Assembly: GCF_016863315.1 (NCBI RefSeq)
Contig: NZ_BOOQ01000044.1
Coordinates: 1 to 64,000 of the forward strand
Reading direction: 5' to 3'
Length of the DNA: 64,000 nucleotides
Source: Planotetraspora silvatica
GTDB lineage: Bacteria; Actinomycetota; Actinomycetes; Streptosporangiales; Streptosporangiaceae
Under the pieces are notes generated by a model, which searched no databases, was not told the DNA's origin, and saw only the letters and a list, made by a program, of their open reading frames with translations. Below are positions 42,899 to 51,253 of the stretch, one piece after another. Each line of letters opens with the position of its first letter. Position 1 is the stretch's first letter. The position numbers and the translations under genes are program-made.

Positions 42899-43657
42899 TC
42901 ACGAGAGCCGCCTCGACGCGAGGATGCTCACCAGATGCAGGATGAGCTGGAGGACGGCGATGATCGCGCACGCGACGACGAGGATCCGGGTGGCGGGGAA
43001 CCAGAAGTCCAGAACGGCGGCCACCACGACGATGATCGACAACTCGATGGCCTGGATGACCCGGTGGAACCGGAGCGCTCCGACCACCTTTCTGGCCAGG
43101 CCGAGACGGCTCGACGTGAACTCCCCCGCCGACGTCTCGGTCGCCGCGACGAGGCCCGAACGGGCCCGGGCGACGTCCACGAGGTCGGTCTCCGACTTGA
43201 TCAGGATCGCGCCCAGAGCCGCGGCGAAACCGAGGATGGTGTACCAGTCGGGGACGGTCTCCGAGGCCCGGAAACCCAGGCCGATGAGCAGCGCGGCCTC
43301 GGCGAAGTAGTGACCCACCCGGTCCAGGTAGATCCCGGTGATCGACGTCCGGCGCGTCCAGCGGGCGAGCTCGCCGTCCGAGCAGTCGAGCAGGAGGTAG
43401 AGCTGGATCAGCAGGGCCGCCGCCAGCGCCGCCCAGAACCCCGGCAGGGCCAGTACGGCTCCCGCCGCAACTCCGGACACGATCATCAGACCGGTGACCT
43501 GGTTGGGCGTGATGGGCGTCTTGGCCAGCAGCCAGGTGGCATAGATGGACAGGTGCCTCATGTAGAGCAGGCCCGCCCAGTGTTCACCACTGCGGCGGTC
43601 CATCGTGGTCTGCGGTTGGGCGACCGCGCGAAGCTCAGCGACCGACGGCGTGGACAT
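42899..43657 (-). CDS. CDP-alcohol phosphatidyltransferase family protein (fourth Asp replaced by His)
   Basis: Membrane enzyme of 252 aa with about six helices that would move an alcohol phosphate from a CDP-alcohol to an acceptor alcohol. The signature reads DCSDGELAR, eight residues, then GIYLDRVGH: the usual DxxDGxxARx8GxxxDxxxD ends with His in place of the fourth Asp, which normally acts as catalytic base. The ATG at 43657 is used; a TTG at 43666 is possible. The start overlaps the dehydrogenase gene by about 23 bp, indicating coupling. It may transfer a polyol phosphate onto a lipid or glycan. Confidence 0.85.
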   Translation of the reverse strand: MSTPSVAELRAVAQPQTTMDRRSGEHWAGLLYMRHLSIYATWLLAKTPITPNQVTGLMIVSGVAAGAVLALPGFWAALAAALLIQLYLLLDCSDGELARWTRRTSITGIYLDRVGHYFAEAALLIGLGFRASETVPDWYTILGFAAALGAILIKSETDLVDVARARSGLVAATETSAGEFTSSRLGLARKVVGALRFHRVIQAIELSIIVVVAAVLDFWFPATRILVVACAIIAVLQLILHLVSILASRRLS

Positions 43658-44693
43658 ATCCCTCAACTTTCGCGCGGACCTCGGTCTCCGAAAGCCGAAG
43701 GTGCTCGAGGATGGTGTAACGGCCGGGCCGCGTGCTCGGAGCCAGCATCACCGCGGCGGTGAACTGCTCGAGGGTCAGGCCGACATCTCCCGGGACGACG
43801 GGCAGATCGTGGCTCCTGAGGCAACCGGCGACGTCGTCGAGCCGGCGGGAGTCCTCGCGGAGGTAGAAGCAGAACGCCGCGCCGATCCCGGCCAGCTCGC
43901 CGTGGTTGGACGTTCCGGGGTAGAGCTGATCCACAGCATGCAGGATCTCATGATCACCGCCGCTGCTCGGCCGGCTTGACCCGGCGATGACCATAGACAT
44001 GCCAGACAGAATCAAAGCTTCCGCGAGGACGGTCAGGAAGGCGTCGGACTCGATCGAGTCCGACCGCCCGAGCACCGCCTCCGCCGCCGTGCGCGCCATG
44101 GAGATCGCCAGCCCGTCGATGGGCTCGCCGCGCTCGATGTTGCCGAGGTGCCAGTCCTCGATGGCCGACAGGTTGCTCACCACGTCGCCGACGCCGCTCC
44201 TGACCAGGGCGGCCGGGGCGTCGTGCACGAAGTCGAGGTCGACCATGATCGCCAGCGGCATGGGCACGCCGAACGAGCCCTTCCCGCCCTCGTGGATCAG
44301 GGAGGCGACCGGCGAGCAGATGCCGTCGTGCGAGAGGTTGGTCGCCACCGCCACCATCGGGATGCCGGCCAGCGAGGCGGCGTACTTGGTCGCGTCGATG
44401 GTCTTGCCGCCGCCGACTCCGACGACGGCCTCATAGGCGCCCTTGCGCAGGTCGGCGCCGAGCGAGACGGCCGCGTCGACGGTGCCGTCGGGCACCCGGA
44501 AGACCCGCGCCTCTCCCAGCGAGGGGGCGATGACCTCGGCGATCCTGTCGCCCTGGCTCGTGCCCACGGCGACCGCGACCCGGCCGGAGGTGGCGACCCG
44601 GCTGTCGGCCAGCAACGCGCCGAGTTGGGCTATCGCGCCCCGCCGGACCTCCATCGTGAGGGGGGCGGGGAGCATTCTTGCCAGAATCGGCAT
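43635..44693 (-). CDS. glycerol-1-phosphate dehydrogenase family (Fe-ADH-like) protein
   Basis: NAD(P)-dependent dehydrogenase of 352 aa. It fits the sn-glycerol-1-phosphate dehydrogenase/AraM group better than ordinary alcohol dehydrogenases: VGVGGGKTIDATKYAA binds the cofactor pyrophosphate, and NLSHDGICSPVASL is the group signature. The metal ligands appear as Asp in RSGVGDVVSNLSA, His in SSGGDHEILHAVD and His in TSNHGELAGIG. It would reduce dihydroxyacetone phosphate to sn-glycerol-1-phosphate, the archaeal-type enantiomer, but other keto-polyol phosphates are possible. GGAG is 5 bases before the ATG at 44693. It is flanked by a nucleotidylyltransferase and a CDP-alcohol transferase. Confidence 0.85.
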   Translation of the reverse strand: MPILARMLPAPLTMEVRRGAIAQLGALLADSRVATSGRVAVAVGTSQGDRIAEVIAPSLGEARVFRVPDGTVDAAVSLGADLRKGAYEAVVGVGGGKTIDATKYAASLAGIPMVAVATNLSHDGICSPVASLIHEGGKGSFGVPMPLAIMVDLDFVHDAPAALVRSGVGDVVSNLSAIEDWHLGNIERGEPIDGLAISMARTAAEAVLGRSDSIESDAFLTVLAEALILSGMSMVIAGSSRPSSGGDHEILHAVDQLYPGTSNHGELAGIGAAFCFYLREDSRRLDDVAGCLRSHDLPVVPGDVGLTLEQFTAAVMLAPSTRPGRYTILEHLRLSETEVRAKVEGYVHAVGR

Positions 44694-46267: not shown

Positions 46268-47824
46268 TCATGCGAAGGACCTCGCGATCCGGCCGGCGAG
46301 CGTGTAGAGGAGCGCGCCACCGCCCCAGGTCAGCAGGGCCAGGAACGTCACCCGGGCGTCGAACAGTGCGGCCGTGACGGCTATCAGCGCCATCCGCTCC
46401 CCGATGGGCAGCACGATGATCTTCTTGAGCCAGTAGGCCGCACCCGAGTCGAGCCGTCTCGACAGTGCGAGCACGGACGCGGCCCCGGTGGCCGGGGGAC
46501 GCGTTCCCTGCACGGTGTCCCACGCATCGGCGAGCGAATACTCCCGTTCCGCCGGGTCGGCCGCCTTGGCGGCGTCCGCCACCGACCCCGAATAGGAGAA
46601 GTCGACCAGGTGCCTGACCGTCTGGAGGATCATCACCGCGACGGCCAGCGTCCAGATGCCGCGGGGCCCCTCCGGCGCCGCCGCGTAGCCTACGGCGAGG
46701 CCCGCGTACACGACGTACTCCTTCACCCGGTCGGAGATCGCGTCGAGCCAGTTCCCCAGCGGAGAGAACGTGCGGGTGTAGCGGGCGAGCTGTCCGTCGA
46801 CGCAGTCGAGCACGAAGGACAGGTAGAGCGCGAGGGCGCCGATGATCTGGGCGAGCCGGTCGCCCTCGGAGAACCAGACCGCGGCGATGGCGGCCAGGCC
46901 GATGGAGATGCCCGTGACCGCGTTCGGCGTGAGGCTCAGCCGGGCGGCCGGCCGTACGAGATGGCGCGACCACGAGCTGACGCAATAGGTCGCGAAGAAA
47001 CCGTCACCGGTCTTGATGGCCGCGTCCAGCCGGGCCGCCTGCTCGTCGACCTCGGCGAGCCGCTGAACGGCCGCGTCCGCCGCGATCTGACCGGCGACCC
47101 TCTCGCAGTGCAGCGGGCCGATGGCGGCGGCGCGTACGGGCACTCCCGCACGCACGAGCCCGGCCAGTAGCAGGTCGGCGACCTCGGTGTCCCCCGCGCG
47201 GCCGAGCTGACGGCTCTGCGCGAGCCGGGCGAGCTCGTCGGCCACATCGGCGAGGCTCCCGAGATGCGCCTCCCCCACCTGGAGGACTCCGCGGAAGGTG
47301 CCGTTGGCCCACTCGACCTGGTGGAAGGAGTTCCCCGCGGAGAGCACCGTGCTCGACTCGGTCCTGACCGGCGGGCGGAGCGGCCCCGCCTCCCCGTTCC
47401 CGACGATGGCGCCGGTGCCCCTCGACGGATGCTCGAGCAGGGCGGCCAGCGCCTCGGTGTGGGCGACCACGTCACCCGACAGGACGGCCACCGCGCTCGT
47501 GGACGACCTGGCCACTCTCGCCACGATCCGCAGGTCCTCCGCGAGCCCGTCGCTCGCCGTGACGGTGTGCCGGAACTCGGCCGCGCCGTCCAGGCCCGCC
47601 ACGTCGTCCAGGCCCCGGAAGCTGTCGTCCCCGCGCGTGACCACGTGGACGTCCCGGACCGGCAGCAGGATCAGCTGACGCGTGAGCCTGCCGAGGAGGC
47701 TGCCGCCCGCGCAGGCCAGCCCGGCGAGCGGCGTGGTGGCGAAGACCACCACCACACTCCGGGCGGCCTCCGCACGGGACACGAGATTGTCCGAGACGCC
47801 GTGCCTGCTCAGATCTGCGCCCAT
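46268..47824 (-). CDS. CDP-alcohol phosphatidyltransferase with degenerate nucleotidyltransferase-like N-domain
   Basis: Protein of 518 aa. Residues about 10-240 look like a decayed nucleotidyltransferase fold (VVVFATTPLAGLACAGGSLL where a GxGxR loop would be; AVAVLSGDVVAHTEALAALL). The C-terminal half is a CDP-alcohol transferase with the complete signature DCVDGQLAR...GNWLDAISD and about six helices. The NTase plus CDP-alcohol transferase order recalls the archaeal/thermophile inositol-phosphate cytidylyltransferase-phosphotransferase fusion. The ATG at 47824 has GGGAA 4 bases upstream; 47890 is the longer alternative. First gene of the minus-strand operon, divergent from the IspD-SDR gene. 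Confidence 0.82.
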   Translation of the reverse strand: MGADLSRHGVSDNLVSRAEAARSVVVVFATTPLAGLACAGGSLLGRLTRQLILLPVRDVHVVTRGDDSFRGLDDVAGLDGAAEFRHTVTASDGLAEDLRIVARVARSSTSAVAVLSGDVVAHTEALAALLEHPSRGTGAIVGNGEAGPLRPPVRTESSTVLSAGNSFHQVEWANGTFRGVLQVGEAHLGSLADVADELARLAQSRQLGRAGDTEVADLLLAGLVRAGVPVRAAAIGPLHCERVAGQIAADAAVQRLAEVDEQAARLDAAIKTGDGFFATYCVSSWSRHLVRPAARLSLTPNAVTGISIGLAAIAAVWFSEGDRLAQIIGALALYLSFVLDCVDGQLARYTRTFSPLGNWLDAISDRVKEYVVYAGLAVGYAAAPEGPRGIWTLAVAVMILQTVRHLVDFSYSGSVADAAKAADPAEREYSLADAWDTVQGTRPPATGAASVLALSRRLDSGAAYWLKKIIVLPIGERMALIAVTAALFDARVTFLALLTWGGGALLYTLAGRIARSFA

Positions 47825-47949
47825 CGCGTTCCCGCTTCCCAGCTCGACCACCCCCCCGAGAGTCACATCGCAACGTAACCGAGTGATCACGAGGTGGCAA
47901 TCGCCTTGCCCTTCTCCTGACGCGGGTATGGTCAGGTGGGGAGGAGATC

Positions 47950-49356
47950 ATGATCGCGGAGTCACGCCTTCGGACGGTCGGAGTGGTGCTTGCCGGAGGT
48001 ATCGGGCAGCGGATGGGCCTGAACACGCCGAAGCAGCTACTGAAGATCGCCGGCAGGACGATCATCGAGCACACGCTCGACACGTTCGACGGCCATCCGG
48101 AGATCAACGAGGTCGTGGTGCTGATGGCCCCCGGCTTCGTCGACGAGGCCGCGGAGCTGGTGCGCAGGAACGGCTACACCAAGGTGAGCAAGATCCTCGA
48201 AGGCGGCGCGAGCCGTACCGAGTCGACGTGGCGCGCCCTGCAGTCGCTGGGCGAACAGGAGTGCGACGTGCTGCTGCACGACGCCGTCCGGCCGTTCGTC
48301 GAGCCGCGGGTGATCAGCGAGTGCGTCGCCGCGCTCCGCCACCATGAGGCCGTGGACGTGGTGATCCCGTCGTCCGACACCGTCCTGGTCGCCGCCCCCG
48401 GGCCGCACGGCGACATCGTCCACGAGATCCCCGACCGCTCCCTGCTCCGGCGGGGACAGACCCCTCAGTGTTTCCGGTTGTCGGTCATCCGCGAGGCCTA
48501 CCGGCGGGCCTTCGCCGACCCCGGGTTCGGCGCGAGGCCCGCGACCGACGACTGCGGCGTCATGGTGCGCTACCTGCCGGACGTGCCGATCCACCTGGTC
48601 GCGGGCAGCGAGCAGAACATGAAGGTCACCCATCCGATCGACGCGTTCATCGCGGACGGGCTCTTCCGGCTGCGTGGACGGGCGGCTCCGGCGCTCACCG
48701 ACGACGAGTGCCGCCGCGGTCTCGACGGCAGGACGCTGGTGGTCTTCGGCGGCGGGCACGGCGTCGGAGCCGAGCTCGCCGACCTCGCCAAGGGTTACGG
48801 CGCGACGGTCCGCTCGTTCTCCCGGAGCCGGGGCGGGGTGCGCGTGGAGGACGCCGGCGCCGTGGACGACGCGCTCGCGCACGTGCACGCCGAGACCGGC
48901 CGCATCGACCACGTCGTGAACGCCGCCTCGGCCCTGCACGTCGGCAGGCTGGCCGACACCGGGCAGACCGCCCTCGCCGAGATCGTGGCGGTCAACTACC
49001 TCGGCCCGGTCAACATCGCCAGGGCCTCGCTCGGGTATCTGGCCGAGACCCGCGGGCGCCTCCTGCTCTGTGCGTCGTCCTCGGACGTCCGCGGGCGGGC
49101 GGGCCGCAGCCTCAACTCGTCCACGGCGGCCGCCGTCGTGAACCTCGCCGAGGCGCTCGCGGACGAATGGGCCCCCCAGGGGGTCCGGGTCAACTGCCTG
49201 AACCCCGAGCGGGCGGTCACGGCCACTCCTGTCGCGCCCTCGGCGGACTCCGGTGTCACCGGCACGATTCCACCGGAGGCCGTCGCCCGCACCAGCCTCG
49301 ACGTCCTGCTGTCCGACCTCACGGGACAGGTGGTGGACATCCGCCTCAGGCGATGA
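47950..49356 (+). CDS. bifunctional-type IspD-like cytidylyltransferase fused to SDR domain lacking catalytic Tyr/Lys
   Basis: Protein of 468 aa. Residues 1-235 are an IspD/TarI-like cytidylyltransferase: VVLAGGIGQRMGLNTPKQLL, GGASRTESTWRAL, LLHDAVRPFV, RRGQTPQCFRL and TDDCGVM. From about 258 an SDR Rossmann domain begins VVFGGGHGVGAEL. In the Bcs1-type relatives (ribitol-5-P cytidylyltransferase with ribulose-5-P reductase) the SDR site is YxxxK. Here the matching stretch reads SLNSSTAAAVVNL, so Tyr is Asn and Lys is Ala, and reductase activity is unlikely. GGGGAGGAG lies 3 bases upstream of the ATG. The glycerophosphotransferase gene follows after 34 bp. Confidence 0.87.
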   Translation: MIAESRLRTVGVVLAGGIGQRMGLNTPKQLLKIAGRTIIEHTLDTFDGHPEINEVVVLMAPGFVDEAAELVRRNGYTKVSKILEGGASRTESTWRALQSLGEQECDVLLHDAVRPFVEPRVISECVAALRHHEAVDVVIPSSDTVLVAAPGPHGDIVHEIPDRSLLRRGQTPQCFRLSVIREAYRRAFADPGFGARPATDDCGVMVRYLPDVPIHLVAGSEQNMKVTHPIDAFIADGLFRLRGRAAPALTDDECRRGLDGRTLVVFGGGHGVGAELADLAKGYGATVRSFSRSRGGVRVEDAGAVDDALAHVHAETGRIDHVVNAASALHVGRLADTGQTALAEIVAVNYLGPVNIARASLGYLAETRGRLLLCASSSDVRGRAGRSLNSSTAAAVVNLAEALADEWAPQGVRVNCLNPERAVTATPVAPSADSGVTGTIPPEAVARTSLDVLLSDLTGQVVDIRLRR

Positions 49357-49390: not shown

Positions 49391-51253
49391 ATGGAGGGAT
49401 CGTTCACGGGGAGAAACGCCCTGCTCATCGGGGTGTTGCTCGCTTCTTATCCGGCATTGCTCGCGGCCGCGCTGTGGCCCGCCACATGGGCCTTCGCGGT
49501 CGCGGCGGCTCTGTCGTACGCGGCGGAGGCCGGCCTGCGCAAAGCCGTCCGCGACCGACTCGGCAGGATTCATCTCGGATCGATGCTCCGGTACACGGCC
49601 AGGGAACTCGCCGTCGTGGTGCTGCTCGCGCGCGTGGCGGGAACCGAGTCCCGCGGTTTCCTCCTGTTCGCCGGCGGGCTGTTCGCCCTCCACTGCGTGT
49701 GCGTCGCGCAGACCGCGCTGGCGACCTATCTGAACAGCTGTCACCACCTCATGCCGGTCACCGCGGCGAACCTCGACCTGTCGGCGCTGCGGATCCCGCC
49801 CGCACCCCCCGCGAGGCTCGTGGCGTGGCGTGGCACCCGGTTGCTGCCCCTCGACGCGCTGCCCGTGGGGCTCGCCGCGTTCGGCGCGCTCTCGGCCACC
49901 CCCTGGCCCGGCGTCGCCGGCGCGGCCGCCGCGGTCCTCGTGGTGCTCGCCGCCGCCCTCACACTCGTCCCGCACGTACGGCGGGCGACCCACCTGCGGG
50001 ACCGCGCTCAGGTCATCCAGGCGGTCGACGAGCAGGTGCGCGCGTACGCGCCCGAGGTCCTGCTCTATTTCTCCGGCTCGGTGAAGTCGGTCTACCAGGC
50101 GACCATGTGGCTGGAGACCCTGGAGCGCATCGGCCGCAGGACGGTCGTCGTCCTGCGGCAGCGCAGCCTGCCCGCCGTCCTGGGACCGACCACGCTGCCG
50201 GTGGTGTGCATCCCCTCGGCCGTCGACCTCATGAACTTCCGCGGCCTCGACTCGGCCGGTGTCGCCCTGTTCGCGGCCAACGTGGGCAACAACATCCACC
50301 TGCTCAGGAAGCCGGGCGTCACCAGCGTGTTCATCGGGCACGGGGACAGCGACAAGGAGGCCTCGTTCAACCCGTTCACGAAGGTGTACGACGAGGTCTG
50401 GGTCGCGGGCCCGGCCGGGCGGGAGAGGTACCGGCACGCCGAGGTCGGGGTCCGTGACGAGGCCATCGTCGAGGTGGGCCGCCCCCAACTCGCCGCGGTG
50501 CTTCGCGGCAGCCCGTACACCCGGGGGACGCTGCCGGTGCCGACGGTTCTCTACGCGCCGACGTGGGAGGGCTGGACCACCGACCTGTTCCACACCTCGA
50601 TCGACCTCATGGGTCCGCGTCTGGTGCGGGCGTTGCTGAACGAGCCCGTCCGGCTGATCTACCGGCCCCATCCGCTGACCGGCCACAGGTCGGCGGCCGC
50701 GCGGGCCGCGCATCGGAAGATCATGGCTCAGCTGCGGGACGCCCACGCGGACGGCCCGTGGGCACACGTGGCGGTGACCGGCGGAGGGCCCGATCTCTAC
50801 GAGTGCTTCAACCAGGCCGACCTGCTTATCGGAGACATATCGAGCGTCGTGTCGGACTTCGTGGCGAGCGGCAAGCCGTACGTCGTGACGAACGTCGCGG
50901 GGCTGCCCGACGACGAGTTCCGCGCGCGCTGTCCCAGCGCGCGTGCGGCCTACCTCCTCGGCCATGACCTCGGCGGCCTTACCGGCGTCCTCGCCTCCCT
51001 CAGGGAAGGCGAGGACACCATGGCCGCGGCCCGCCGCGAACTGCGCGCCCACCTGCTGGGCCCCGACGAACCGGACGCGCTCACCCGCTTCGACGAGGCG
51101 GTCGGCAGAGCGGTCGCCCGTTCACGTGCCGGACGGGCCGTCGGGACCGGCGGAGCCTCAGTCCTCGAACAGGTCCTGCAGGCGCGCCCGCTCGGCCTCG
51201 GGCCGGGTCTTGCTGAGCCGGGACGGGCTGGTGAGGAAGCCGGTGCCCCATGA
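49391..51253 (+). CDS. CDP-glycerol glycerophosphotransferase family protein with N-terminal membrane domain
   Basis: Protein of 620 aa. The first ~210 residues hold about six membrane helices. The catalytic domain (about 225-585) resembles teichoic-acid polyol-phosphate polymerases: FIGHGDSDKEASFNPFTKVY with the catalytic His, LYAPTWEGWTT, LIYRPHPLTG and DLLIGDISSVVSDFVASGKP. It would transfer glycerol phosphate or a similar polyol phosphate from a CDP donor. The ATG at 49391 is chosen because the membrane domain starts there, although its ribosome binding site is weak. The last ~35 residues are low-complexity and overlap the convergent GT2 gene by 96 bp, so the stop may have been extended by mutation. 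Confidence 0.85.
   Translation: MEGSFTGRNALLIGVLLASYPALLAAALWPATWAFAVAAALSYAAEAGLRKAVRDRLGRIHLGSMLRYTARELAVVVLLARVAGTESRGFLLFAGGLFALHCVCVAQTALATYLNSCHHLMPVTAANLDLSALRIPPAPPARLVAWRGTRLLPLDALPVGLAAFGALSATPWPGVAGAAAAVLVVLAAALTLVPHVRRATHLRDRAQVIQAVDEQVRAYAPEVLLYFSGSVKSVYQATMWLETLERIGRRTVVVLRQRSLPAVLGPTTLPVVCIPSAVDLMNFRGLDSAGVALFAANVGNNIHLLRKPGVTSVFIGHGDSDKEASFNPFTKVYDEVWVAGPAGRERYRHAEVGVRDEAIVEVGRPQLAAVLRGSPYTRGTLPVPTVLYAPTWEGWTTDLFHTSIDLMGPRLVRALLNEPVRLIYRPHPLTGHRSAAARAAHRKIMAQLRDAHADGPWAHVAVTGGGPDLYECFNQADLLIGDISSVVSDFVASGKPYVVTNVAGLPDDEFRARCPSARAAYLLGHDLGGLTGVLASLREGEDTMAAARRELRAHLLGPDEPDALTRFDEAVGRAVARSRAGRAVGTGGASVLEQVLQARPLGLGPGLAEPGRAGEEAGAP

Follow-up and report, generated by a model that had tools for sequence, protein, structure and literature searches.

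The SDR half of a cytidylyltransferase–SDR (CT-SDR) fusion protein of the soil actinomycete Planotetraspora silvatica is, judged by its sequence, by comparison with relatives and by its predicted structure, a decaying remnant that still folds, and the active site of the CT half is intact. The CT has most likely been kept since the Streptosporangiaceae have lost the canonical ispD gene, with the CT taking over the cytidylylation of MEP. The fusion lies in a window of 64,000 nucleotides (the whole stretch of DNA that was analysed), whose relevant features are as follows:

47950–49356, + strand: CT-SDR fusion coding sequence, 468 aa, Bcs1/Acs1-type architecture
47983–48660, + strand: IspD/TarI-type CT domain, residues 12–237 (Pfam IspD, 153 bits)
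48454–48456, + strand: Gly169 of the xQTPQ motif, still Gly in the window protein
48718–49353, + strand: SDR domain, residues 257–468, catalytically degenerate (adh_short, 69.8 bits)
48748–48768, + strand: Rossmann glycine motif GGGHGVG, residues 267–273, kept
49075–49077, + strand: Ser376, at the catalytic Ser position, kept
49114–49116, + strand: Asn389 instead of the catalytic Tyr (phmmer alignment to solved SDRs)
49126–49128, + strand: Ala393 instead of the catalytic Lys (same alignment)
49391–51253, + strand: CDP-polyol:polyol-phosphate transferase (PF04464), start codon inferred
43635–44693, − strand: glycerol-1-phosphate dehydrogenase-like gene (NF002022), the '43.6-kb dehydrogenase'
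46268–47890, − strand: CDP-alcohol phosphatidyltransferase-domain protein, a conserved cluster neighbour with a homologue that also adjoins the intact paralogue

The two active sites of the window protein

The window protein has an IspD/TarI-type CT fused N-terminally to an SDR, which is the Bcs1 type of architecture. An earlier note on this DNA had aligned the SDR by eye, with Asn for the catalytic Tyr and Ala for the catalytic Lys, and phmmer alignment to solved SDRs places Asn389 and Ala393 at these positions. The same residues are found in the separately sequenced Planotetraspora mira (L001, 95% identity), so a sequencing error is ruled out. A Tyr/Lys pair elsewhere in the SDR site, which the note had named as grounds for rejecting its claim, was looked for and not found. 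K281 is the only Lys in the SDR half and Tyr occurs there only at positions 283, 350 and 363, which rules out a relocated pair.

Compared with classical SDRs, the window protein has the GxxxGxG motif (as GGGHGVG) and the Ser/Asn residues (S376 and N349), and also retains Asn324, but YxxxK is absent. The substrate-side motif, missed by the earlier note, is also gone; it reads NPERTxTPMRxRAFGxEP in intact proteins and NPERAVTATPVAPSADSG here. The Bcs1-type reductase site (YxxxK plus NPERTxTPMR) is thus missing. AlphaFold2 predicted two well-folded domains (mean pLDDT 84); confidence was low at residues 378–382 and at 421–438, where the lost substrate-side motif lies. The note's view that the fold and Rossmann motif are kept agrees with this model outside those two segments, and its judgement that reductase chemistry is unlikely is supported too: such chemistry is very unlikely, and we infer that this half has no reductase activity.

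In the CT half, the CTP/MEP site residues R21, K28, D111, R114, T144, R163, T171, D200 and K225 are all there. The protein scored 161.4 bits against the NCBIfam ispD equivalog TIGR00453, under the 181.3-bit cut-off, and in the tree its CT falls outside the clade of canonical actinobacterial IspDs. The best sequence matches of the CT are to TarI, the ribitol-5-phosphate cytidylyltransferase (4JIS, 6XHP, 2VSH), with HDAVRPF and GQTPQ in common; unlike TarI, it is fused to an SDR remnant and occurs in genomes without canonical IspD. Its fold and catalytic residues are also those of IspD, the MEP cytidylyltransferase, a role that we propose for the Streptosporangiaceae CT. The bifunctional CDP-ribitol synthase Bcs1 of Haemophilus influenzae (PMC10299916) likewise joins a CT to an SDR and is encoded in a polyol-phosphate polymer cluster, next to a polymerase. 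Intact relatives keep YxxxK as Bcs1 does, whereas the window SDR lacks the catalytic pair and the substrate-side motif, leaving the CT as probably the main function. Across both domains, the top Foldseek match was human ISPD/CRPPA (4CVH), which has the same architecture at 18% identity; the mouse protein, Ispd, shows no activity with MEP (PMC4873967).

SDR states and selection among homologues

Intact orthologues at the same cluster position (in Microbispora, Herbidospora and others) carry an almost invariant YTSSSYTRGRAxYSLYSSxKAAVVNL. The segment YSLYSS[TA]KAAVVNL occupies the same columns in the Microbispora and Herbidospora orthologues and in a CT-SDR paralogue from the window's own genome (61% identity, G000:C2:510630-512015), in which Tyr and Lys are kept. 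At these two positions the window and P. mira have N/A, P. kaengkrachanensis and P. phitsanulokensis Q/T, and P. thailandica A/R, with Q/M, D/R, G/S, E/G, Y/V, H/R, G/A and T/A in other degenerate orthologues. The earlier note had suggested checking whether N/A is conserved among homologues; the replacement pair instead differs by lineage, ruling out a conserved new N/A site.

Erosion runs across the whole SDR. In many degenerate orthologues, deletions are accompanied by erosion of the glycine motif (which is eroded or deleted in G001, G007 and G034; some of the genomes with G handles are draft assemblies), and in the close relatives G016, G019 and G047 the SDR is entirely gone. All 13 degenerate SDRs are in frame. 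The CT active-site residues are unchanged in each of these 13 proteins, and the CT site is invariant in every SDR state. A CT tree, built without the diagnostic column 169, nested the degenerate Planotetraspora clade inside intact lineages and indicated further separate SDR losses in G008 and in a six-row clade (G007, G013, G016, G019, G031, G047). We count at least three losses, though the careful tree does not settle how the CT-only and fused lineages branched at depth. Two phylogenetically independent contrasts fell on well-supported branches; independent-pairs tests went mostly in one direction, with too few pairs for significance.

Selection was estimated as dN/dS in six species pairs, using the same four Planotetraspora genomes for the degenerate copy and the intact paralogue. 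The SDR of the degenerate copy gave 0.60–0.90 in five of six pairs, with confidence intervals mostly including 1, compared with 0.11–0.22 for the paralogue. In the window–P. mira pair some constraint is still visible (0.33, CI 0.16–0.65). For the CT, dN/dS was 0.19–0.34 in the degenerate copy (0.60, imprecise, for window–P. mira) and 0.09–0.19 in the paralogue. The SDR half is therefore relaxed and the CT half constrained, the window copy's CT being somewhat more relaxed than the paralogue's. The lineage-varying residues, the absence of the SDR in close relatives and its high dN/dS together argue for decay, with no new conserved site.

In the alignment, column 169 (in xQTPQ) stands out as the single strongly discriminating column, separating intact from SDR-less proteins completely: Gly is found in 43/43 intact CT-SDRs and 0/34 SDR-less proteins. 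The residue has changed in 9 of the 13 degenerate proteins, and the four with Gly all belong to Planotetraspora sensu stricto. Canonical IspD has Val or Ala here, at a position two residues before a substrate-contact Thr in E. coli IspD numbering.

Cluster neighbours

The gene order GT2, CDP-alcohol transferase, glycerol-1-phosphate dehydrogenase-like, nucleotidyltransferase, membrane protein, CDP-alcohol transferase, CT, GT2, LCP is kept in most members of the Streptosporangiaceae, whatever the SDR state. The dehydrogenase-like gene (43635–44693), the NTP transferase and the two CDP-alcohol transferases make up a core that is conserved across the family.

The earlier note proposed that the reduction step has passed from the SDR to the 43.6-kb dehydrogenase, which would explain why the two genes are clustered. 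The gene does share the cluster and is a relative of NAD(P)-dependent polyol-phosphate dehydrogenases (NF002022, 233 bits, under its 413-bit cut-off). However, it stands at the same place beside degenerate and CT-only genes and, at 85–90% identity, equally beside fully intact CT-SDRs. Its presence is thus independent of SDR state, so neither the takeover nor the reason given for the clustering is supported; compensation is rejected on the synteny, and we regard this version as very improbable. A better candidate for the reductase is the intact paralogue at G000:C2, which has a polyol-phosphate polymerase of its own next to it. The paralogue sits in a block of its own, consisting of a CDP-alcohol transferase, a membrane protein, the CT-SDR and the polymerase. 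This block (L064:7614-13070) adjoins RecO and an undecaprenyl-diphosphate-synthase-like gene and looks like a duplicate of the four genes in the window.

The gene whose presence tracks SDR state is the CDP-polyol polymerase, found within 5 kb of 29/32 intact, 3/12 degenerate and 1/33 SDR-less loci. It adjoins the CT-SDR in the window and in P. mira. By blastn it has been deleted in two sister species, cleanly in P. kaengkrachanensis (L002) and with 42 bp left in P. phitsanulokensis (L019). Polymerase remnants suggested by tblastn in these species were rejected, being by blastn mostly overlaps with neighbouring genes. Since the window and P. mira keep the polymerase and the two sisters have lost it, SDR decay preceded polymerase loss in the Planotetraspora lineage.

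Loss of ispD and competing explanations

In other members of the class, carD, ispD and ispF lie side by side. The carD–ispF gap is 706–1119 bp, with ispD inside, in seven canonical genomes, and only 20–79 bp, with ispD gone, in 17 sampled Streptosporangiaceae genomes including the window's. In the window's genome (L114:7702-8669, G000:C57), CarD is followed after ~20 bp by IspF; across the family this operon lacks canonical ispD. A Pfam IspD search of 40 family genomes gave a single strong homologue for 33 and two for six, the window's among them; one incomplete assembly had none, and in none of the 40 was a strong homologue beside ispF. The window's genome has Dxr, IspE and IspF and lacks HMG-CoA reductase, so some enzyme must make the MEP step. 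It holds two DXP reductoisomerase genes (G000:C34:22469-23614 and G000:C52:48481-49644). For the MEP step, our homologue searches gave no candidate other than the cluster CT and its paralogue; the genome holds two CTs, the second also intact, and either could be IspD. In five genomes (G009, G028, G030, G036, G037) the sole IspD homologue is an intact CT-SDR, which would then have to serve both pathways. In a genome of another family (f16; L152, G077:C52), the carD–ispF gap is 1322 bp without IspD, and the only strong IspD homologue is again an intact CT-SDR. A partial literature search found no paper describing ispD loss in Streptosporangiaceae. IspD has been described as evolutionarily rigid in a survey of the MEP pathway (PMC10663253). 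That survey, however, recognised IspD by a lenient domain E-value, at which a TarI-type substitute would not be told apart from canonical IspD.

We consider it probable that an ancestral CDP-ribitol synthase has lost its SDR to decay while its CT was kept as an IspD replacement in the ispD-less Streptosporangiaceae. The ancestor would have been bifunctional, its SDR reducing ribulose-5-phosphate with NADPH and its CT making CDP-ribitol with CTP. With canonical ispD lost, the cluster CT would have taken over the conversion of MEP to CDP-ME, and the intact paralogue may supply CDP-ribitol where Planotetraspora still needs it. Redundancy or loss of the ribitol module would then have left the SDR, but not the CT, free to decay. 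Several observations count against this account. The window CT keeps the ribitol-type Gly169, adjoins a polymerase gene and is somewhat relaxed relative to the paralogue; the genome has a second intact CT, which could share MEP cytidylylation; the window–P. mira SDR shows constraint and all degenerate SDRs are in frame; and independent contrasts are few.

The retained Gly169 and polymerase would fit a division of labour, in which ribitol-5-phosphate comes from the SDR of the paralogue and the window CT converts it to CDP-ribitol for the adjacent polymerase, leaving the window SDR redundant. The paralogue's SDR is intact and constrained, and P. mira shares Gly169 and the polymerase. Ribitol-5-phosphate could moreover be shared in free form, since Zolli et al. 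2001 (cited in PMC10299916) state in their title that the Haemophilus enzyme does not channel its substrate. However, two sister Planotetraspora have no polymerase here and still have an intact CT site, and other lineages keep the CT without a ribitol module in the sampled neighbourhood. We see such a division as possible but unlikely. The in-frame SDRs, and the fold and glycine motif kept in the window, would also suit a structural or regulatory pseudo-oxidoreductase, an idea raised by the earlier note, acting for example in dimerisation or NADPH-dependent control of the CT. Human ISPD, with the same two domains, makes CDP-ribitol (PMC4873967). A conserved role of this kind sits poorly with a glycine motif eroded or deleted in three genomes, lost positions that vary, SDR dN/dS near neutral in most pairs and a domain dropped by close relatives, and we think it improbable. 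That the SDR still reduces by some mechanism without Tyr and Lys has almost no probability in our estimate: Ser376, Asn349 and the cofactor motif remain, but the site has no other Lys, the substrate-side motif is lost and the substitutions are lineage-random.

Extended to the whole family, the proposed replacement becomes a broader scenario, for and against which we see the case as evenly balanced. A CDP-ribitol-type CT of a cell-wall polymer cluster would have replaced the essential IspD, deleted from carD-ispD-ispF; fusions that are intact and the only IspD homologue of their genome would provide precursors for both isoprenoids and ribitol polymers; and repeated loss of the ribitol module would have made the fusion a dedicated IspD, its SDR tail dying and its residue 169 altered. 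The prediction of dual-substrate enzymes is directly assayable. The series from intact through degenerate to absent SDR is a natural experiment on substrate specificity in IspD, TarI and ISPD, and such CT-SDR fusions should not be annotated as oxidoreductases. An entire actinomycete family seems to have put a cell-wall enzyme in the place of IspD, an exchange of which the decaying SDR tail would be the trace.
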